Below, piece after piece: positions 6,608-22,089 of a stretch of 22,089 bases of DNA (its first letter is position 1; every line of letters begins with the position of its first letter). The DNA is taken from assembly GCA_030549815.1 (NCBI GenBank), contig JAUQQQ010000011.1:31758-53846 (forward strand), read 5' to 3'. A program made the translations under genes and the position numbers. The notes below the pieces were generated by a model. The model was not told the DNA's origin and made no database searches. It saw only the letters and a program-made list of their open reading frames with translations. The DNA is from a bacterium (GTDB taxonomy: Bacteria > DRYD01).

Positions 6608-7357
6608 CTAATTTTTTGTTTGTTTAATGTTTTTGTTTTCTTTTTGGAAGAGTAATGCTCCCATATATTCTTTTACGGTGTTAATCTTAATTGAGGGATA
6701 ATTAGTTTTGAAATCTCTTGTTAGTCTGTTATCTTTAAGTGGTGGGTAGTTTTCAAACATAAAGTGTAGGAAATTGTTTAGCTGCGGTTCATTGGAGAAA
6801 GACATAATAAAAGGCATTATAATATTGAAAAACATTTCTTCTTTTCTCTGAATTCCTATACCTTTGAAATCCATAATTTTTTTGAGAATGGAAGTGGGTT
6901 TTGTGTTTCCAATCTGTTGATTTATTTTTTTCTGAAAGTAATTAACGAGTCCGATGCTTACTGTTTCTGAAAGAAGATGAGAGATTCCTTTTATTCTTTT
7001 GTCTGGGAAATTTGCAGGTCTTGTCCCTTTGTATTTCCAGATTGTTTTTGACATTCTCAAGGAGAAATCAAAGGAAGATGGTATATCGGTTTTATCCTCT
7101 GTCAATCCTGCTCTATATAGGAGTGCTTTTTCAATGATTTTTCTTGTTCCAAGTTTTTTTATTTCGGAGTATGGGGTGAGCAATGCGAGTTCAAGGAAGT
7201 TAAGCTTGTTGTTAGGGTATCCTAAGGAAAGCATAATTTCGCGATAAAGTGCCTCATCAGGATCAGCTATTTTCAAAAGGTTATGCATTCTCTGAATTTT
7301 AAGTTCAAGCCATTTTTTACCGTAATATTTTAAATCAGGGATAGTTTCTTTGGTCAT
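6608..7357 (-). CDS. DUF2851-like protein, C-terminal half only
   Basis: 249 residues. The middle reads RLSK-like SLRMSKTIWKYKGTRPANFP, then an amphipathic stretch, FKGIGIQRKEEMFFNIIMPF and a helical end. This order (RPANxP, a GIG turn, a NxxLPF-like helix) is what I recall from the C-terminal half of DUF2851 proteins, which are normally about 400-450 residues. The N-terminal half is missing: a TAA lies two codons before the ATG, no Shine-Dalgarno is visible, and directly upstream are short TTGGCGATT repeats. It is the last gene of the minus-strand block. It may be a truncated relic left by recombination. Function unknown. Confidence 0.5.
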   Translation of the reverse strand: MTKETIPDLKYYGKKWLELKIQRMHNLLKIADPDEALYREIMLSLGYPNNKLNFLELALLTPYSEIKKLGTRKIIEKALLYRAGLTEDKTDIPSSFDFSLRMSKTIWKYKGTRPANFPDKRIKGISHLLSETVSIGLVNYFQKKINQQIGNTKPTSILKKIMDFKGIGIQRKEEMFFNIIMPFIMSFSNEPQLNNFLHFMFENYPPLKDNRLTRDFKTNYPSIKINTVKEYMGALLFQKENKNIKQTKN

Positions 7358-7362
7358 TTTGA

Positions 7363-7402
7363 GTTAATTGCCAAATAATCGCCAAAATCGCCAAGTAATT
7401 GC
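7363..7402. repeat. Short iterated repeat upstream of the DUF2851-like gene
   Basis: Read on the minus strand, TTGGCGATT, TTGGCGATT and TTGGCAATT follow each other at about 10-11 bp steps, flanked by another GCAATTA. The spacing is near one helical turn. They could be binding sites for a regulator, or the leftover end of an AlbA_2-type gene like that at 16322, whose 3' side also carries short-period repeats. Confidence 0.5.
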
Positions 7403-7462
7403 TACCATTGCTTTTTAAAAACATATAGCTTAAACTAAATTTTTTCTACGATTTTAATAAGT

Positions 7463-8191
7463 TTAACATTTGGAGATTGCAAGTTCAGTATAAGGGAATT
7501 GTTCCCATATTTTACCATCAAGGATTCGTCCTGTCTTTTTTTTATTTTTTCCACCCCATTGTTTGAAGAAGAAGGGAATTTTTTTTTCTATACAGATATC
7601 TCTTATTTTTCTTACCCACTCTGCTTCTAAGGGTCTTGCACCAGGACCACTTTCGCCTCCAACTATAACCCAGTTAATCCCTGACAAATCGGGGCATACA
7701 GGGCCAAGCAAAGGTTCAAAAGATATAAACTTAATCCTTGCTTTTGATTGTTTTAGATATTCTATTCGCCATATATAATCTTGATTTTCAACTGATACCC
7801 CCATCCATATATTATCTGACCATCTTAAAAGATCATCTTTATCATATTTCAGAAGTATATGTGGCCTTTTGGTTAGAATCTGAAATATATGTTGCTTATT
7901 TTCGTTCATTACTTTGAAAACTTGCTGAATAAACTCAATAGGAACATTTTCGTGAAACAAATCACTCATAGAATTAACAAATATCAAGGATGGTTTTTTT
8001 ATGAAATAAGGTTTAGATAATTCTTGTGGATGCAGAGTAATTTTAAAACCATTTCTGTATTTATATAATCCCATTACTTTAAGACGCAAAGCAAACTTTT
8101 CTGCATAACAATTTTTACAACCTGGAGAAATTTTTGTGCAACCTGTTATTGGATTCCATGTGTATTTTGTCCATTCAATTTTGCTTGTCAT
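7463..8191 (-). CDS. DUF5131 (phage Gp37/Gp68-like) three-Cys-motif protein
   Basis: A 242-residue protein with the signature of this family: IEWTKYTWNPITGC at the start, then the three cysteines C18, C25 and C28 in TGCTKISPGCKNCYAE, which look like a metal or iron-sulfur site. Further motifs are FVNSMSDLFHE, QILTKRP, NIWMGVSVENQ, FISFEPLLGP and WVIVGGESGPGARP, then FFFKQWGG near the end. The set resembles a small radical-SAM-like barrel; the biochemical activity is not established to my knowledge. It follows tcmP by 12 bp and has a strong GAGAGGAGG site. DUF5131 and TcmP are known neighbours in phage and defence regions, and the pair here looks intact. Confidence 0.88.
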   Translation of the reverse strand: MTSKIEWTKYTWNPITGCTKISPGCKNCYAEKFALRLKVMGLYKYRNGFKITLHPQELSKPYFIKKPSLIFVNSMSDLFHENVPIEFIQQVFKVMNENKQHIFQILTKRPHILLKYDKDDLLRWSDNIWMGVSVENQDYIWRIEYLKQSKARIKFISFEPLLGPVCPDLSGINWVIVGGESGPGARPLEAEWVRKIRDICIEKKIPFFFKQWGGKNKKKTGRILDGKIWEQFPYTELAISKC

Positions 8192-8203
8192 TTTTTCCTC
8201 CTC

Positions 8204-9115
8204 TCAATTTTTTTTACCAATAATATAATTTGCTATTTTTAATGCTGTTTCATTATTTGAAGCGAAAATGAAATGATATATAACAGAATTTTTTGAATTT
8301 TTTAATTCTAAAGGTTTTTCAGAAACATATTTCCATATAGTTTTTAATCTTTCAACATAGAGTTGAGCAATTTTATTTATTGCGTCTGGATCTTTTGTCT
8401 TCTTATCTTTTTGTTTTCTAAATAAATTGCTGTTTGTTTCTTCCTTATAAAAATAATTCTCAATTTCTTCTTTTGTTATTCCGAAGAATGTTTCAATTTT
8501 TGCAGATTTTTTTAACTTTCCATTTTTATCAAGTAATCGGTTTACAGCCACACCTGTTGGTACCAAGATCCACATATCTATTCTAATTCTAATATCTTTC
8601 AGATATTCAATAGATTTCCAATTTATTTCCATACCGAATGGGTCCAACATTACAAGAGCAACACTACTCTTATTCTTCTTCATTTCTTGGGAAAAATCCT
8701 TTAACACCTCATTAACATCTCCATGAATGAATTTGCAATTTTCAAATTTTTCAGGAAATTTTTCTTTGACATATTTTTCAAGCTGTTTTATATTTTTTTT
8801 AACTACATCTACAAAATAATGAATATCAAATCCAGGTTTTAATTTCAGAACTCTTTCAGGAGAACCTTCATAAACTTTTGCTTCTTCTGGAGTTGAAGTA
8901 AAATTTGGGAACAAAAGTTGAACATACTTTATTTCTTCCTCACTTTTATCATATTTTCCTCTACCGGCAAATCCATCGAAGTAGATTATCTGTGATGGCC
9001 AGCTCTTATATTTCTCTCTCTGACGATGCATTATTTTAAGATAAGCTCTTACATATTTTTCAAAGGCTTCAAGCTTTTCCTCTGTCCATTTTCCTCCCCA
9101 ATCTTTTTTTATCAT
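8204..9115 (-). CDS. tcmP: Three-Cys-motif partner protein TcmP
   Basis: About 303 residues with the hallmarks of TcmP: an N-terminal WGGKWTEEKLEAFEKYVRAY, the glycine-rich loop IIYFDGFAGRGKY of a Rossmann methyltransferase-like fold, FIHGDVNEVL, and ALVMLDPFGMEINW as the motif IV equivalent. The family is defined by sitting beside proteins with a CxxxxxxCxxC motif, and the next gene is exactly such a protein. The substrate is unknown. Start choice: AAGGAG at 9125-9130 lies 9 bp from ATG 9115 but only 3 bp from an in-frame GTG at 9121, so 9115 is preferred; the GTG start would overlap the upstream stop by 3 bp. It is tightly linked to the nuclease-methylase gene before it and probably co-transcribed. 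Confidence 0.88.
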   Translation of the reverse strand: MIKKDWGGKWTEEKLEAFEKYVRAYLKIMHRQREKYKSWPSQIIYFDGFAGRGKYDKSEEEIKYVQLLFPNFTSTPEEAKVYEGSPERVLKLKPGFDIHYFVDVVKKNIKQLEKYVKEKFPEKFENCKFIHGDVNEVLKDFSQEMKKNKSSVALVMLDPFGMEINWKSIEYLKDIRIRIDMWILVPTGVAVNRLLDKNGKLKKSAKIETFFGITKEEIENYFYKEETNSNLFRKQKDKKTKDPDAINKIAQLYVERLKTIWKYVSEKPLELKNSKNSVIYHFIFASNNETALKIANYIIGKKN

Positions 9116-9117
9116 AT

Positions 9118-12100
9118 TCACACACTCCTTGCTTTTTCTAATCTGTTTTTGACTAATTCAGCGACTGCCCAATATACTTCTTTTCTCTCTTCCTCAGTTA
9201 AACCAAGTGCATCAAACACAATATCATCAAGCGCTTTCCTGTCAGGCAATGGATTTGGCTCCTGCAAACGAATGGGCTTTGAGGGATCAAAACCAAGCTC
9301 AATGAAAATTGATTGGGGTGCATAATCACTAAAAAGTGAAATTTTATTCATTATATTCCTTATTTCTTCTTCTGTTAAATTTTCTGGATTAATTACAATC
9401 AATGGTTTCATTTCTGGAGCATAAGTCTGTAAAGCACCTTATCCTAATCCTGTTCTTCCATATATTTCCACCATTAAAAAATTTATAGATGTATTTAAAA
9501 TAAAGGCCAATACAGAAGCATGTTTTTTAAGAATTAAATAATAATATACATGGTCTGTTAATATATGATCTTTATTCCAAGGAAAGAGGTATCTTTCATT
9601 AAAAAATTGATTAAATAAAATATCAGCATTAGGTAATTTGGGTAGAATATACCATTTTTCTCTTCCTCTGCATGTTGGTCTTTTTTGAAATTCTTGTTTT
9701 TCTCCCCATTCAATATATTTTAATGCATTTGTTTCTCTTAGTTTTGATTTTTCTTCGTGGCACATAAAAACGAGATGGTTTAAGTCTTCAAGCCGAACTA
9801 TGATAGTTTTCAATTCTCTTGGGCTTTTTATCACTGGTTTTAAGAATTTTGCTTCAATCTCACCTTCCCATCCTGCACCATTTCTTACAGGAATTAAAGC
9901 ATAAGGGTCTTTTTCAGAAATTTCAACAACCTCTTTAACAGTCATCCCTATTGGTTTTAAATAAAAGAATTCATTCGCTCCTGTTGTAAATCCTCTTCTT
10001 ACTTCAGCAATGTCTCCTAATCTTACGAGTTTATCTTTCCCTTTTTCTAAAATTTTAAAATATATTTCGGGGGCACGGAGATACTTCCCACCCCACTTGT
10101 TGCCTATGTATTTTTTGAATTCCAAATTTTTATAAAGCTCTTTTTCCTCATCATCAACTTCAACCCCTTCAAGTAAGAGTTCATCTTTGGTTTTTGGAAA
10201 AATTCTGAAATCTTCATCGTCAAAAATTGGTTTGTTCGCTTTCGCTATTCTTTTTAAAACATCTGGTTTCATCACATCTTCAAACGTTTTTTTGAAAGCT
10301 ACAAATTTAATTGTGAAGTTTTCAGGTTTATTTTCAGGTCTTTTTATTAAAACTATTACTGTATTTACATCTGCTTGTTTGAATGAGCGCTTTTTGAGGT
10401 TATCAATAATCATAATTGGTTCCATATTTTTGAGCAAAAACTCCTGAAGCCCAGCACCATATCCCACATCAAGCCAAGAATTTGAATTTATAAAACAAAA
10501 AATTCCACCAGGACGAAGCAAAGATAAAGATTGATAGTAAAAATAAACATAAAGATCACTTCTTTTATCTATTACATTTATTCCCCATAAGTTTTTAACT
10601 TTTTGAAGAAGTTTTTCTTTGTATTCTTTTTTGATTTCTCTCCATTTATCATCATCGTAATCGTTTTTATTAAGAAGAGGAGGAGCTATCATCTCCTGTC
10701 TTACATAGGGCGGGTTCCCTATAACTATGTCAAAACCACCTTTTAATGAAAAAACCTCAATAAAGTCAATCTCCCACAAAAAGAAATCTTTTGCTTTGTT
10801 TTTTTCAATCGCTAAAAGAGTGTTTTCATATCTTTTAATATCGTTCTCTAAATTTTTTTTCTCGTTTAGTAGTTTTTCTATTTTACTTTCTGTTTTTTGA
10901 TCCTTTTTGTCCCAAAGATATCCTTGTCCTTCGATCATTTTTATATCTTGTTCTATTTGCTCTATTTCTTTTTTCTTCTTTTCTATTTTGTCAAAAATTA
11001 TCTCTTTGAATATTTCTTTTTCGAATTGTTCAATTTCTTTTAATTCTTTTAAGTCTGCGCTTCGTGTTCCCGAGAAAAACTTAAATTTTCGATCTATAAG
11101 TTCGTTTATCTTTTCTCTGATATTTTTAGGGAGGATTAACATTTCATTTCTCAAATCAATGGGAACATCTGCAATTTCTTGGATAAGTGAGTCACCTTGA
11201 CGGATTTTGAAAGAAAGGTTTGGTAATAAGGGGTTTTTATAAATGTTCATTTCTTTTTCATCTGTTTCAATTATAAGAGAAAGCCATAGCCTTAGTTCTC
11301 CAACCATAACGGCCCAATCTTTAACATCAACCCCATACAGACTATTGAGAATTATTTTTTCTTTTAAAGCAAAAAGGTTTTCTTCTTTGTTTTCAAGTTT
11401 TCTTGATATTTCTAAATGAAGTTGAACCAAAACATTCATCATTCCCACGAGGAAGGAAGCAGAGCCTACTGCAGGGTCAAGAATTTTTACATCATCTAGA
11501 AATTTCTTTATGCTTTTTAATTCATTTTCCTCAAAAACATTAACGCCTTCCTGAGGATTAAATACGAAATCAATGAGTTTTTCTTCTGCTAAATTTGTTT
11601 TTGATTTCAAATAATTTACAAGAGATAAGCGACACATAAGATCGATTTCAATTCTTGGAGTATAGAATACTCCTGCTTCCCCACGTTCTTCCTCATTTAT
11701 AAGAGATTCATAAACTTTTCCAATCATTTCAGGGTCAACTGCAACTTCGACATCAAGCTGAGTAGATTCATCAATAGTAAAGTTGTAAATTTCCAGAAAA
11801 CCTTTCCTTAAATCTTTATTGTCTGGTTCAAAGAGCCATTCAAAAACTTCATCCGGCACATCAAAACCAATTTCATCAAGCTCTGTCTTAGAAAATAAAC
11901 CACCGTTTAAGAAAGGCATTATGCGAAATGATTCTTGTATATCATCTGGTAATTCTTTGCTTATAAAATTCGATTTCTTATTAAAAGCTCCAAAGAAAAG
12001 AGAAGAAAGCCAATCTGAATAGAATTTATTGATCTTTTGTGTTCTTTCCTTCCATTCTTTATATTTCAGCCACAGGTTTTTCATATAATTTTTATCTTGC

Positions 12101-12858
12101 TGATAATCTTTCCATTTAAGCCAACCCTTTCTTTGCAGGAAATAAAGAAACATAATCCTTGATAGTAAAAGTTGAGCAAATGAATGTTTTTTATCATATG
12201 GTTTTGTTTTATCAAGGGATGGGATAATGATATTATAAACGGCATGTTTATATGCAGAAAAGAATTCATTTGTTACAACTTCTACATCAAACGCTTTTTC
12301 TAAATCTTCAAGGGTGGGTTTTTGTCTATCGTTTTCAAGTATATGAATAAATCTTGATTGAGCGGTATGACTTTTTTCGTTTTTACCAACAAGAAAGGAT
12401 CATCTCTTTGCTGGAGTGAATTCTTCTTTAACTTTCAATTTTCCAGAAGGGGTTTTTTCAAAACGATAATCTATTTTGACTAAGGAAAATCGCCAATCTT
12501 CATTATCTGGGGACACGAAAGCGACGATAGCAGCATCCTTTGGTTCTCCACTTATACTTTCCTTCAAATACCATGCAATTAAATTTCTTTGAGTTGTTCT
12601 TGCTTGCTCAAGTGACGATCCTTTTTTGAGATTGACAATTAAAAGATCAATCTCTTTATCTTCGTAAGTATATTTACCAATCCTTTCTAATGAACTTACG
12701 TAGTTTTCAAATGCAGCAGGTATATAATTGCCTTGATATACAAATGATTTATCTTCATAGGATTTTAGGAGATTTTTGAGAAAAATTATGAACCTGTTCT
12801 TATCAAAAGGATTTTCAAATGTTTCAATTATAAGTTTCTTTGCCTGTTCTCTGTTCAT
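9118..12858 (-). pseudogene. Type IIG-like (Eco57I-family) nuclease-methylase with two in-frame stops
   Basis: One frame of 1247 codons from ATG 12858 (ACGGGGGAAAT upstream) to TGA 9118-9120, broken only by TGA at 12400-12402 (codon 153) and TAA at 9439-9441 (codon 1140). Residues 1-150 look like the N-terminal nuclease part (EDKEIDLLIVNLKKGSSLEQ, then ARTTQRNLIAWYL). Next come FLVGKNEKSHTAQSRF, the helical FAQLLLSRIMFLYFLQRKGW, the N6-adenine methylase SAM loop DPAVGSASF (D461), the catalytic NPPY (715-718), a target-recognition region, and a C-terminal tail after GRTGLG. Family members read through both break points (TPAKR-[Y]-SFLVG and GRTGLG-[E]-GALQ), so the stops look like point mutations. 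The helicase gene ends 26 bp upstream. Type IIG enzymes combine cutting and protective adenine methylation; with the helicase this would be a restriction-type defence. Readthrough, or separate pieces acting together, are alternatives. Confidence 0.75.
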
Positions 12859-12884
12859 TTTATTTCCCCCGTAATTTTTTCAAT

Positions 12885-15800
12885 TTAGCTTAAATAGAGT
12901 GATAGTATAACTTCTCCTTTTCCTGTTGTTTGTGTGTAGTTTTCTGAATAGTGGCTTTCAAGAAATGAGGGAGAAATCTCTTGTTGTAAAATGCCGATTA
13001 CCTTTGATGGGTTTTGCATTTCAGTATTTAATTCTTTAATTTTCTTTAAAATTTTTTGGACGGTTTTTTTGGGTAAAGCTCCTTCCTTAAGCTTTGTTAT
13101 AACTTTTTTTAGATAGTTTTGCAGGTCTTCTGTTAATTGCTTGCTGTTTTGTTGTGTTGCTTTTAAAATTTTTAAAAGCTCTGTTGTATTATCTGAACCC
13201 CTATGATTATAAACAATTTCTTCATTAGTTGCATCAGAAAAAGCAATTTTATTCTTATCAAGTAGTTCGTAATAATCTTCAAAGGGTAATTTAGCTCTTT
13301 TTGTATCTTGGGAACTTTCGAGGATTTTTACTGCAGTTAAAAAGTCAAGCTCAATCGTTTTATTCTTGTCTGATATAAAGAATTTCATCAATTTACCTTT
13401 CCTGAAAAATGTCAAAAGAGAATTTTGGATGGGAATATCTAAGTTAATATCTATTAAGTTAATATCTGTGCTATATTTTGCTGAGCGAGCTTTTTTAGGA
13501 AGCCGCTTTATCTTTTCAAAAAGTTCAGGATTTTTGTCACGTATATCTTCAATAATTCTCAGATATTTTAACTCACTTTCTTCTTCCTCATCTTCTGTAA
13601 TAGTTTTTGTTGAAAGTAGTTTGTCAAATAATTCGTGAGAAGATACTGGTTCACCTTCGGTAAGTATAGCGGAGTCGTTTCCAAGCAAAGTTAAAAATGC
13701 CTCTACTTTAGAACGTGCGATCTTTGTAAGCTCAATTTCAGAATCTGCTTGTTTTGTCGGGAAAAAATTAAATGTATAAATTTTATCAAAGGGTGTATCA
13801 ATTCTATTTACTCTACCTACTCTTTGCATAAGTCTTGTTGGATTCCATGGTATATCGTAGTTAATCACAATGTTTGATCTGTGAAGGTTTACACCTTCTG
13901 AGAGGACTTCAGTTGATACAAGTATCCTGTATTCATCTTTTTTGTTTCGGGCTTTTGCATCAAAATTTTCTATTATTTTGGTCCTTATATCTTCCGGAGA
14001 ACTACCATGAAACAAAAGAGTAATCTCACCAAATTCTTTATTTATATTTTCTTTCAAATACTCAGCGGTCTCTTTTGATTCAGTAAAGATAATTATTTTT
14101 TTGTTTTTAAGTAAGGGATTGTTTTTTAAGTTATCGATTAATGTTTCGAGTTTTGGATCCCTTTTTACAGATTCCCACATAGTTTTTATTTGTTTTAAAA
14201 TTTTAAGGTCATTTTCAAGATCATGTTTTAGATCTTTGCTAAATTCTTCGCTACTATATTTTTTGGCTTTACCTTCTTCGATAAGTTTTTGAATTGCTTC
14301 ATCATCTCCTTGCTCTAAAAGCTCAAAAATTTTGTTTGGGTATCCTCTGATTATATACACACTTCCCTTTTCATATTCTTGAATAAATCTTTCGTAGGAA
14401 TAAATGAATCTTTCGATGCTTTTTCTGAATGCATAAAAGCTACTTTCAAGACGTTTAACAAGAAGCACTTTCATAAATCTACCCATATTTCTTTGTGATT
14501 GTTCTTCAAGGTTAGTGATTCCTTTTTTTAGATAGAGTAATGGCATATAGCGAGTATACTTAAATTCTTTAGTTAGTAAGGTGATTGTATCCATGAAAAT
14601 TTCATCTTCGATGTTATTTAGTTGGTAATAGAGAGGTTTTGGGTTTTCTACTTCTGGAGATTTGATATTATTTTTCTTTAAATCTTCGGCGAAATATTTT
14701 TCAATTTCAGTCCTTGTTCTCCTAACCATTAAGTATTTTAAAATTTTATTACGAATTTCTTTAGCATTATTCTTTGTTATTTCAAGGAATTTTTGGTAAT
14801 CTTTATCTTGCTTGATAGTGTTTAGTTTTGTTTCAAGTTTTAAGAAGAAATCTTCGAGATTTCTGACACCTGGTATAGTGCTTTTTGTTGGATTTTGGAA
14901 AAGTTTAATCAGGGAAAGAATATCTTTGGGGGAGTTATTGTAAGGAGTTGCTGAAACTAAGATAACTCTTTTTCCACGGCAAATTTCAGCAATCTTTTCA
15001 TAACTAATAGTTGTTTCTGTTCTAAAACGATGAGCTTCATCTATGATGATATTTTTAAACTCTCTTTGTTTTGTTTTTTCTCTTGCTTCATCGAGTTTTC
15101 CAATCGATACGAATTCAGCTGGGATATGGAAATCGTAAAAAATGTTGGGCCAGGAGCCAGGATTCTTTTCATCAAGAAGTGCAGGGGGAGCTATCACAAG
15201 AGTTCTACCATCAAGTTGAGCTGCAAGCATAGCGGCAATGTAAGTTTTCCCAAGCCCCACTACATCAGAAATAAAAACACCACCATATTCCTCTAATATT
15301 TTCTTTGCATTTAAAACTGCTTGCTTTTGATATTCAAAACTTTTGAAATCGGCAGGCAAGTATCTTGTGAAAATCTCATCTGTTTGTGATAATTCATCCT
15401 TAAAATACTCATATAAAAATTTAAGATAAAGTTCATAGGGGGTAATATTTTGATTGAGCCAAGTTTTTTCATTTAAAGTCTCTACAAAATTTTCGGATAC
15501 ATCGACTGATTCTTCCCATAATTCTTCAAATTTTTGTTTTGCAAATTCATAATCGGCACGGTTTTTTAACTCAACATTAAATTCGAGGTTATCAACGAGG
15601 CCTGATTGAGTAAAATTACTTGAGCCAGTAATAACTCTTCCTACATCCCGATCGCCTTCTTTGAATGTCATTATGTATAATTTTGCGTGAATATTTCCAA
15701 ATGGATAAGCTCTTATTTGTAGTTTCCCGGCCCTTATCCATTCAATAAACTTTTTTACTCCCTCTTCAACACTTTGATTATCTTCTGATTCTTCCATTTC

Positions 15801-16094
15801 ATTTTCTATTTCAGATTCAACTATTTGTTTTATTTCTGAATGAGAAGGGGGTGAATTTTCTGTGCTTTTTCTTATTAAATTGTAGGTTTCTTTATTTGTG
15901 CCAATTCCAATAAGAATTCTTATTTTTTCAGTTTTTTCAAGTGATTTATATATTGCATGAAACCCACTTATATAAAAATAAGCGACTAAGCAATCAAAAA
16001 ATTTGCAATCTTTTATAAGTTGTTCAAATCTATCTTTTAGAGTTTGACCTGGTTCATTGGAAATAAAAGTTAAATCTAAAGGTGGCTTTACCAT
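12885..16094 (-). CDS. PLD-domain SNF2/DEAD-like helicase of a restriction or defence system
   Basis: An intact 1069-residue protein. Residues 1-200 form a phospholipase D-like nuclease domain with a single HxK motif (H136 in NIHAKLYIM) and GSSNFTQSG (157-165), so it would have to dimerise to form a PLD active site. Residues ~240-780 form a superfamily 2 helicase: Q-like FEYQKQAV, Walker A DVVGLGKTY (277-285), DEAH (352-355), VSATPYNNS (380-388), then the second RecA lobe with IIIFTESKETAEYL, VLSEGVNLH and the arginine-finger motif QRVGRVNRID. The last ~270 residues are charged helices with no family I recognise. It is the first intact gene of the minus-strand block and feeds directly into the nuclease-methylase. 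By analogy with other helicase-methylase pairs it would be the ATP-driven DNA-translocating or scanning subunit; that is inference. Confidence 0.87.
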   Translation of the reverse strand: MVKPPLDLTFISNEPGQTLKDRFEQLIKDCKFFDCLVAYFYISGFHAIYKSLEKTEKIRILIGIGTNKETYNLIRKSTENSPPSHSEIKQIVESEIENEMEESEDNQSVEEGVKKFIEWIRAGKLQIRAYPFGNIHAKLYIMTFKEGDRDVGRVITGSSNFTQSGLVDNLEFNVELKNRADYEFAKQKFEELWEESVDVSENFVETLNEKTWLNQNITPYELYLKFLYEYFKDELSQTDEIFTRYLPADFKSFEYQKQAVLNAKKILEEYGGVFISDVVGLGKTYIAAMLAAQLDGRTLVIAPPALLDEKNPGSWPNIFYDFHIPAEFVSIGKLDEAREKTKQREFKNIIIDEAHRFRTETTISYEKIAEICRGKRVILVSATPYNNSPKDILSLIKLFQNPTKSTIPGVRNLEDFFLKLETKLNTIKQDKDYQKFLEITKNNAKEIRNKILKYLMVRRTRTEIEKYFAEDLKKNNIKSPEVENPKPLYYQLNNIEDEIFMDTITLLTKEFKYTRYMPLLYLKKGITNLEEQSQRNMGRFMKVLLVKRLESSFYAFRKSIERFIYSYERFIQEYEKGSVYIIRGYPNKIFELLEQGDDEAIQKLIEEGKAKKYSSEEFSKDLKHDLENDLKILKQIKTMWESVKRDPKLETLIDNLKNNPLLKNKKIIIFTESKETAEYLKENINKEFGEITLLFHGSSPEDIRTKIIENFDAKARNKKDEYRILVSTEVLSEGVNLHRSNIVINYDIPWNPTRLMQRVGRVNRIDTPFDKIYTFNFFPTKQADSEIELTKIARSKVEAFLTLLGNDSAILTEGEPVSSHELFDKLLSTKTITEDEEEESELKYLRIIEDIRDKNPELFEKIKRLPKKARSAKYSTDINLIDINLDIPIQNSLLTFFRKGKLMKFFISDKNKTIELDFLTAVKILESSQDTKRAKLPFEDYYELLDKNKIAFSDATNEEIVYNHRGSDNTTELLKILKATQQNSKQLTEDLQNYLKKVITKLKEGALPKKTVQKILKKIKELNTEMQNPSKVIGILQQEISPSFLESHYSENYTQTTGKGEVILSLYLS

Positions 16095-16164
16095 TTTCTA
16101 CAGTAATTTGTTTTTTGTTATAATTCTCGAAAATGTTGATAATATCCTTTCTTTTATAAACTCT

Positions 16165-16246
16165 GGACAATTTTTGTGTAATTGATGTAAAAAATGTGCA
16201 ATTTTTGTGCAATTAATGTGCAAAATGTGCAATTAATGTGCAATTT
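16165..16246. repeat. 11/20-bp alternating repeat array (31-bp superperiod)
   Basis: On the minus strand the word ATTGCACA (or ATTACACA, ATTGTCC) begins units of 11, 20, 11, 20 and 11 bp in strict alternation, giving a 31-bp period of a little over two full copies. It lies between the broken AlbA_2 gene and the helicase start at 16094, so it could serve as operator sites for the helicase operon, or be an extension of the repeats behind the AlbA_2 gene, which show the same 31-bp step. Confidence 0.75.
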
Positions 16247-16287
16247 CATAGAGGGATTTTACTTATAAATTCTATAAATTTTCCTAA

Positions 16288-16346
16288 TCATTACCTTTTC
16301 ATTACTTTCATTACCCAATCATTACCTTTCTATTACTTTCATTACA
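16288..16346. repeat. 31-bp tandem duplication across the stop codon of the AlbA_2 gene
   Basis: On the minus strand GTAATGAAAGTAATAGAAAG plus GTAATGATTGG (31 bp) is followed by an almost identical copy. Within each unit GTAATG recurs about every 10 bp. The first copy encodes the last residues of the protein (VMKVIER and the stop), the second lies just beyond. The protein end is therefore itself made of the repeat. Confidence 0.75.
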
Positions 16347-17424
16347 TAGTAGGTATTTTTACCTTTTCCTTCCTCTTTTAAAAAGCCTTTACTGATCAAA
16401 TCTGAAAGTTCAAAAAAAGCAGTTTTATTTGAAACTAAATTTATCTCTCTATATTCCTTATTAGTAATTTTTCCTCTCTCTTTTACATACATAATAGCCT
16501 TAATTTGCCTTTCATTCAATCCCATTTTCTTTAGATTTTCTTCTGTGTAGATATTTATCAGCATAGAAAAACACGTTAGCAAGCAAGGGATTGCGAAGTT
16601 TTGAAGGGTGCTCATGTTTCAACATTTCAATTGTAATCTCTGGAGGTAAGGTCCCCGGGTTCATAATAACTAATTTATCATCATACACGCGGATTTGTAT
16701 CTCAGAAGTGCTTAAATAGTCTCTATGAATTAAGGCGTTAATAATAGCTTCTCTAAGAGCTTCATAAGGATATTCAAGTATCTCCTTTCTATGAATCCCT
16801 TCGAAAATTGTCTTGCTTATAAGGTATTTTGTTCTTAATATATCCAGAGATTTTTCTAATTGCTCAAATAAATTCCCTTCGACTATATCAGTGGATATTA
16901 TGTCTGTTAAAGATTTAAATCTGCCAATTTTTATTTTTGCTTGTATGTAAAATTTTTGTGGATTTTTAGAAAAAAGGAGTATGCCTGCCTTTGTGATTTT
17001 TCCTTCCTTTATTAAATTAAGCTTTTCTAAAATGGTATTCCAGTAAACCATCCCATGTTTGCCCTGTTTTTTGAAGGAGAAAAGTTATTAGCTCTTGTCC
17101 TTCCAGTGTTTGGGTGGTGCTACCAGAACGGATATAAAACTTTCCATTGTAAGAAATAGGAAAGCTTGAAGGATTAACTTTTATTTCAATAACTGGCTTG
17201 TCCTTCATTTTTATCAGATTTATTTCAGGCAAAATTCCAAGCTTATTTTTTATTTTATTCGGTAGAATTTTAAGCAACTTTTTGTGATCTTCCAGCCCTA
17301 TTATATTGCCTTTATCGTTTATCCCTATAATTAGCTTTCCTCCTTTTGAATTTGCAAATGCTGAGATAGTAGCTAAATATTCATCCTGCCAGCTTTGTTT
17401 ATATTCAATCTCTTGGTCTTCCAT
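16322..17424 (-). pseudogene. AlbA_2 (Schlafen/RecG-like) putative transcriptional regulator, broken by two deletions
   Basis: Three overlapping frames make one family protein. 17424-17017 is the AlbA_2 domain (EYKQSWQDEYLATISAFANS, KGGKLIIGI, FYIRSGSTTQ, WDGL). 17051-16512 is the middle part (KITKAGILLFSKNPQKF, EALREAIINALIHRDYL, IRVYDDKLVIMNPG, HPSKLRNPLLANVFFYA). The third frame ends at 16322 and is the winged helix (LNERQIKAIMYVKERGKITN, then KNTYYVMKVIER). Family members have roughly 60 residues between WDGL and the LEKLNLI segment, and roughly 80 between FFYA and the winged helix; both blocks are missing here and the frame changes at each junction (near 17017-17051 and near 16550-16565). 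The intact protein would be a DNA-binding regulator of about 480 residues. It precedes the helicase-methylase operon, which it may once have controlled. Confidence 0.75.
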
Positions 17425-21471: not shown

Positions 21472-21537
21472 GTTTCAAAACCTTATAAGTAGAGTAAAAA
21501 CGATAGATTTAAATAACAACCTCGGGATACAAAAAGA
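21472..21537. repeat. Outermost degenerate CRISPR-like repeat plus 36-bp spacer-like segment
   Basis: A 30-bp repeat (21472-21501, starting GTTTCAAAACCTTATAAGTA and ending AAAAAC) is followed by 36 bp and then the next repeat, so the spacing is that of a normal CRISPR unit (66 bp). The 36-bp segment contains CAACCTCGG, also found in the third unit (near 21692), so it may be a shortened 89-bp unit and not a true spacer. Confidence 0.65.
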
Positions 21538-22003
21538 GTTTCAATTTCTTTCAATTTCTTAAATGTATACTGGAATGTAGACTGGGATTGCAAGAATCTA
21601 TCCAACAAAGTTGAATAAAAGGAGCTATTCTATTTTAATTCTTAATGTTTTAATACCTTATGGGTAAGCTGGGATTGAATAGCAATCTACCCAACAACCT
21701 CGGATAAAATAAATTTTCTATTTTAATCTAGAAAATTTCAATTCTTTGTTAGGTAGACTGTGATTGCAAAGCAACATATTCAACAAAATTGGATAAAACA
21801 AATTTTTCTATTCTGATTAACAATGTTTCAATTTCTCATAGATAAGACTAAGATTGTGAAGCAATCTATTGGACAACATCGGATAAAAAGAACTATTCTA
21901 TTTTAATTAAAAACATTTCAATTCCTCATAGGTAGACGGGGATTGCAAAACAATCTATCCAACGAAGTTGGATAAAACGAATTTTTCTGTTTCCATTAAC
22001 ACA
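21538..22003. repeat. Five tandem 88-109 bp units, each a decayed CRISPR repeat plus two hairpins
   Basis: Units begin at 21538, 21647, 21735, 21825 and 21915, so the steps are 109, 88, 90, 90 and 89 bp; the first carries an extra ~20 bp by internal duplication of TTTCAATTTCTT. Each unit starts with the first 22-24 bases of the CRISPR repeat (consensus GTTTCAATTCCTCATAGGTA), then a hairpin around GATTGCAAAGCAATC, then a second around TATCCAACAAAGTTGGATA, then an AT-rich stretch (AATTTTTCTATTTTAATTAA). Units differ by scattered substitutions, so they are old. The 60 bp after each repeat are related between units, unlike CRISPR spacers. Confidence 0.85.
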
Positions 22004-22089
22004 GTTTCAATCCCTTATAGGTAGACTGAAAATGAGGTGATTAAAATGATAAAAATTTCTTATGATATGTTTCAATCCCTTATAGGTAG
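22004..22089 (-). CRISPR. Distal (trailer) end of a CRISPR array running out of the window
   Basis: GTTTCAATCCCTTATAGGTA plus one more base is identical at 22004 and 22069, the second cut by the window edge. The 65-bp step fits a 30-bp repeat (ending GAAAAT) and a 35-bp unique spacer (22034-22068). The reverse complement ends in ATTGAAAC, the usual 8-base crRNA 5' handle of type I-B and related systems, so transcription is expected on the minus strand with the leader to the right, outside the window. Repeats then decay toward fumC, as trailer ends do. Only one complete spacer is visible and no cas gene is in the window. Confidence 0.65.

Follow-up and report, generated by a model that had tools for sequence, protein, structure and literature searches.

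In the prevailing view a CRISPR array changes in two ways, through capture at the leader end and through loss by recombination between repeats. Degenerate CRISPR trailers lie at the leader-distal end, carry decayed repeats, lose whole units exactly and have their oldest units in common with related arrays, and in each of these respects the locus after fumC in the window (the whole stretch of 22,089 nucleotides analysed here) is alike. It is unlike them in that its spacer positions are occupied by near-copies of one 64-nt two-hairpin sequence, with a period of 89 bp as against 66 bp. We consider it probable that this is the trailer of a type I-B array of a Candidatus Calescibacterium-like bacterium, which would have arisen by a founder fusion, been amplified by recombination and spread with the arrays, and which most likely has no sequence-specific function left.

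Tandem Repeats Finder assigns to 21578–22029 a period of 89, 5.1 copies and a score of 361, and a repeat search of the window located seven repeat-like starts (21472, 21548, 21647, 21825, 21915, 22004 and 22069), with an additional degenerate start at 21735. Unit borders are cuts at repeat starts and delimit six tandem units after fumC (66, 109, 88, 90, 90 and 89 bp), then an intact CRISPR repeat, a 35-nt spacer and a repeat cut at the last base of the window, which is the end of contig C19 (53,846 bp). The first-pass annotation had described five such units; both searches confirm its tandem repeat after fumC, the count being six units of 66–109 bp, and the return to a 65-bp spacing that it saw at the right end is real (22004 to 22069). 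Rfam CRISPR-DR2 (RF01315) matches 22004–22033 above its gathering score and more weakly at 22069, 21472 and 21825. The features are as follows, C5 and C14 being two further contigs of the same genome.

21472 to 21537, minus strand: unit 1, 66 bp, the most distal and most decayed; its start matches the array repeat at 20/25 positions; no fold
21538 to 21646, minus strand: unit 2, 109 bp; decayed repeat, internal duplication (TTTCAATTTCTTTCAATTTCTT) and decayed hairpins
21647 to 21734, minus strand: unit 3, 88 bp; 91% identity to C14 unit 2
21735 to 21824, minus strand: unit 4, 90 bp; 89% identity to C5 unit 1
21825 to 21914, minus strand: unit 5, 90 bp; identity of 97% to C14 unit 3 and 92% to C5 unit 2
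21915 to 22003, minus strand: unit 6, 89 bp, the best kept; identity of 98–99% to C5 unit 3 and C14 unit 4
21941 to 21955, no strand assigned: hairpin 1 of unit 6, GATTGCAAAACAATC; the best copies elsewhere read GATTGC-GAA-GCAATC
21957 to 21973, no strand assigned: hairpin 2 of unit 6, ATCCAAC-GAA-GTTGGAT
22004 to 22033, minus strand: intact 30-nt type I-B CRISPR repeat, GTTTCAATCCCTTATAGGTAGACTGAAAAT; the crRNA sense is the minus strand, ending ATTGAAAC
22034 to 22068, minus strand: 35-nt spacer, the last of the array, with no relation to the units
22069 to 22089, minus strand: next CRISPR repeat, truncated by the contig end

Elsewhere in the window, two distinct AT-rich tandem repeats of ~31-bp period lie side by side at 16168–16345, between the PLD-helicase and HTH/AlbA_2 gene regions, and the minus strand of 6608–17424 carries a defence-like island with a DUF5131 gene, an Eco57I-type methylase, a PLD-SNF2 helicase and a split AlbA_2 gene. 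One gene of this island, which has no Pfam hit, presumably resembles TcmP.

In a well-preserved unit nt 1–25 of the 30-nt repeat are followed by ~64 nt common to the units, and in the best copies this insert forms two hairpins with 3-nt loops, laid out as nGATTGC-NNN-GCAATC, then TATCCAAC-NNN-GTTGGATAAAA and a tail with TTCTATTTTAATTAA. The junction between CTG and nGATTG is common to well-preserved units, the repeat having lost its final 5 nt (AAAAT/AAAAC); in the oldest units decay at the junction is too advanced to judge. Conserved blocks are present in both the repeat part and the insert. The handle side of the repeat had been singled out in the first-pass annotation as the best-kept part, and the conservation of its first eight bases (GTTTCAAT) is fairly good, but CATAGGT and, within the insert, the blocks GATTG..GCAATCTAT, GATAAAA and TTCTATT match or exceed it. 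Similarly, the two hairpins per unit that it proposed are present in the best copies, but units 1, 2, 4 and 5 of the window fold as DNA no better than shuffles; folding is clear in unit 6 (z = −2.6) and weak in unit 3 (z = −1.8), and unit 9 of C14 also folds well as DNA (z = −3.2). The gradient of decay along the units is suggestive but weak (Spearman p 0.03–0.46). RNAalifold returned no consensus pairs from the first insert alignment, and the model used to search for units was therefore built on sequence only.

The stretches around the arrays were read in the genome to which the window belongs (G000; 1.59 Mb in 23 contigs). All genomes compared are draft metagenome bins, with several loci at contig ends, and C19, C5 and C14 end inside repeats. 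BLAST within this genome places the 89-bp family at three places only, all of them contig ends (the end of C19, which is the window, and the starts of C5 and C14), and the position is always the leader-distal CRISPR end. A normal array of 20 repeats, with the same repeat and without hairpin units, forms the end of C3. Contigs C3, C9, C10 and C17 start with a repeat or at a repeat edge, followed by a common ~400-bp leader, and the leaders of G000 sit at these other contig starts in the expected direction. Next to the leader on C10 lie genes for Cas1b, Cas4b, Cas3b, Cas5b, Cas7b, Cas8b and Cas6b, that is, a type I-B system. It follows that crRNAs are read from the minus strand of the window and that the trailer lies on the fumC side. 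The terminal repeat of C5 is a variant (GGCTGAAAAT) also present in C3 and C9, where it stands first after the leader, and given this leader-type last repeat it is possible that in C5 the leader is joined straight to hairpin units.

A repeat–spacer unit of normal length (67 bp) sits among the hairpin units in both C5 and C14 (L053, 383–449, and L054, 417–483), on the minus strand, and provides a marker for the order of events. That it might be a shrunken hairpin unit was rejected, the search model giving no match to it. Its place among the hairpin units of both contigs means that simple tandem duplication is insufficient and that recombination between arrays is needed.

Hairpin units are also carried by two more species of the genus, on C36 and C47 of G002 and on C44 and C146 of G003, and well-preserved units of the three species have the same junction. 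The repeat of G002 and G003 (GTTTTCATTCCTCATAGGTAAGCTGAAAAC) differs from that of G000, and there the hairpin unit is joined to that repeat. The whole order can be read on a single contig of G003 (C44), where decayed units are followed by four repeats with three spacers and then by the leader, which places the units at the end opposite the leader. On C47 of G002 a unit and two repeats precede a cas operon with the gene order of the typed I-B operon on C10, while C25 of G002 has an array with a remnant flank only. Units are seen at six of the eight visible leader-distal ends in the genus, and at one orphan trailer (C146). They adjoin normal spacers and intact repeats of identical sequence in the window (22004–22089), on C44 of G003 and on C36 and C47 of G002; with a common 64-nt insert instead of unique spacers they fail as working repeat–spacer units and are classed as trailer-derived. 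The trailer ends of the three arrays that were read in G004, of the sister genus, carry no units; G001 has no such repeats. Several spacers of G004 on C16 and C26 (L069, L071) are long near-perfect palindromes, such as GAGTTCAGGGAAGGAATTGAACCTTCCCTGAACTAA, that resemble captured terminator hairpins.

The first-pass annotation had offered two readings of the units. That of an old trailer, in which a repeat plus its insert was duplicated in tandem, is supported by the type I-B cas genes beside the leader, the four leaders, the normal 20-repeat array and the confinement to leader-distal ends in three species. Neither of the two contrary outcomes that it had named, the lack of an array beyond 22089 and a dispersed repeat with no link to CRISPR, was observed; as the contig ends at 22089, the array was followed at other sites of the genome and in relatives, not directly to the right. 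Its second reading, a separate hairpin element using the repeat as a boundary, is less likely, as every copy found lies in a CRISPR trailer, and among seven genomes the perfect hairpin GATTGCNNNGCAATC occurs only inside these trailers. Of five contigs matched by a pattern scan only that of Candidatus Calescibacterium sp. SKYB25 belongs to the family, the other four matching little or nothing past the pattern. A more specific proposal, that a mobile palindromic element (MITE or REP-like) inserted repeatedly into CRISPR repeats, would account for a short, hairpin-rich sequence at several loci and in several species; however, the searched phages, plasmids and IMG/VR viral contigs hold no match to the unit family, no copies are dispersed at unrelated sites or lie outside CRISPR trailers, and the units have one common junction and the same order at different loci. 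We therefore rejected a mobile or viral origin on the database result, and taking all of this together regard the element as improbable.

The order of the units links the three loci of G000. Units 3, 4, 5 and 6 of C19 pair in the same order with C14 unit 2, C5 unit 1, C14 unit 3/C5 unit 2 and C14 unit 4/C5 unit 3 (89–99% identity), and C5 units 4–7 pair with C14 units 5–8 (97–99%); neighbouring units within one locus are about 70–80% identical. Some loci miss whole units exactly, as CRISPR arrays do. Between C5 and C14 a tract of ~92–98% identity covers the trailer and ~1 kb of the adjacent gene, an AAA-ATPase_like/PDDEXK_9 gene in which this ~1 kb is common to both contigs at 95–98%; beyond it, identity drops sharply to ~62–88%. 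Because the adjacent ~1 kb is equally alike and the drop beyond is sharp, the two trailers appear to exchange sequence or to have been copied recently together with their flank. An extra constraint on the trailer was rejected as the cause of the ~97% C5–C14 identity, which extends to the gene and fits exchange or recent duplication. Genes of this kind (PF09820/PF08011) are multi-copy, with 16 matches in G000, and are the immediate neighbours of many CRISPR trailers across the genus: L109 (G000 C5, 733–2300), L110 (G000 C14, 854–2368), L112 (G002 C36), L102 (G002 C25) and L113 (G003 C146). The end facing the trailer is the 3' end in G000 and the 5' end in G002 and G003, and the C5 copy is decayed.

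The repeat part of a unit is mostly nearer the repeat of its own species, several inner units of G000 being about equally near both species' repeats. On C36 of G002 it matches its own repeat at 24/25 positions and that of G000 at 18/25, and in the most leader-proximal unit of C5 (unit 8) the match is 25/25 to its own modern repeat against 19/25, with inner G000 units intermediate. This modern repeat, together with the normal spacer among the units, might be expected if one sequence had repeatedly been captured by Cas1–Cas2 as long spacers. Normal spacers here are, however, 35–37 nt and not 59–64, and the units lack the last 5 nt of a 30-nt repeat that integration would duplicate in full; from the known mechanism, the constant 25-nt junction points to recombination between repeat parts instead, and such capture seems extremely improbable. 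An origin of the insert in the leader found no support: five inserts compared with five leaders, on both strands and with shuffled controls (50 comparisons), gave a single p of 0.01, to the leader of another genus.

We therefore favour the reading of the units as a fossil trailer. In an ancestor of the genus one repeat would have lost its last 5 nt and been fused to a ~64-nt two-hairpin sequence, probably in a single event. The unit may then have been multiplied as its 25-nt repeat parts recombined or slipped, just as array units normally duplicate and are deleted, a route suggested by paralogous arrays that differ by whole units, gained or lost exactly. The arrays, leader and trailer included, would have been copied to several chromosomal sites, leader and array presumably moving together, and would have exchanged sequence; this is suggested by matching units that are ordered at three loci and by the tract of ~97% identity that runs into the flanking gene. 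Distal units would have decayed as trailers do, and the best-kept hairpins might at most affect transcription of the 3' end of the array. A current function is doubtful because the hairpins are broken in most units of the window.

The pairing of stem 2 provides a counterpoint to a fossil. In an alignment of hand-picked, related units of equal length, with four decayed units left out, 85% of cells are paired and 14 two-sided changes are seen against 5.2 in shuffles, slid controls being far lower. All of these changes fall in stem 2, and the pairs affected number four, no more than in shuffles; stem 1 shows breakage or one-sided change only. Across species stem 2 keeps its pairing despite sequence change (CCAAC/GTTGG vs CTTGC/GCAAG), which could reflect selection. 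The stem 2 of G002 (TTGCAAAGCAA) repeats the core of stem 1, and owing to this resemblance one replacement event could account for much of the covariation.

Tandem hairpins at the 3' end of the pre-crRNA might arrest RNA polymerase or slow it down and shield the transcript, a property that would be of importance wherever transcription of fumC or another gene heads for the array. The palindromes of the best copies, the conserved pairing of stem 2 and the presence of units at most visible leader-distal ends (6/8) fit such a role, as does a terminator-like site on the crRNA strand of unit 6 (21976–21954; 1 found, 0.3 expected). This was the one site, and a weak one, obtained on the minus strand when a GC-rich stem followed by a U-run was sought in array sense. 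Against this, stem 2 is not followed by a clear U-run, folding is lost in most window units, and the arrays of C3 and of G002 C25 have no good units; a functional 3' end is thus rather unlikely. The same doubt applies to a genus-specific structured trailer that selection keeps, in step with each species' repeat, and that would give type I-B arrays a functional 3' boundary, whether it ends the pre-crRNA, protects it or serves as a sponge for Cas6/Cascade.

By analogy with CreA RNAs, Cas6 might also cut the degenerate repeats to release two-hairpin RNAs that use Cascade for regulation, close to the near-identical processed RNAs envisaged in the first-pass annotation, an idea that is weakened by the decay of the hairpins. 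In its favour, the genome has a type I-B system, a Cas6 gene and degenerate repeats, and the crRNA handle is fairly well kept; however, there are many near-copies in place of one or two repeats, the 64-nt insert is structured, no toxin gene was identified, and no match to the insert that could serve as a target was found elsewhere in the genome (E below 0.01, at which CreA-type partial seed matches would escape). We find this highly improbable, and rank the fossil first, a terminator or stabiliser second and a crRNA-like RNA third.

No account of such a trailer came up in a literature search of partial coverage. A unit that is not a spacer and whose repeat is defective has here multiplied, persisted across species of one genus, spread to several loci by copying and adopted the changing repeat of each species, so that the units form an ordered record of array duplication and of exchange between arrays, and raise the question whether CRISPR trailers ever function. 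The casposon/MITE model for the birth of CRISPR arrays envisages a tandem array of a target-like repeat and one repeated insert, as is found here; in the present case, though, array and cas genes pre-exist, and the fixed junction points to recombination and not to integration. CreTA, the CRISPR-regulated toxin–antitoxin RNAs, in the outline given by PMC9458426, likewise pairs a type I-B system with degenerate CRISPR repeats in the same genome, but has mostly one or two ectopic repeats with a toxin RNA, whereas up to ten tandem units are found here and no toxin or self-target. MITE or IS hits in CRISPR-cas loci, at least those outlined in PMC10359306 for ISs in cas genes, also place foreign-looking palindromic DNA in a CRISPR locus; here, in contrast, there are no dispersed copies and amplification occurred as part of the array unit. 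While degenerate CRISPR trailers are already known, their hairpin-unit form represents an unusual, genus-wide fossil of array growth and recombination.
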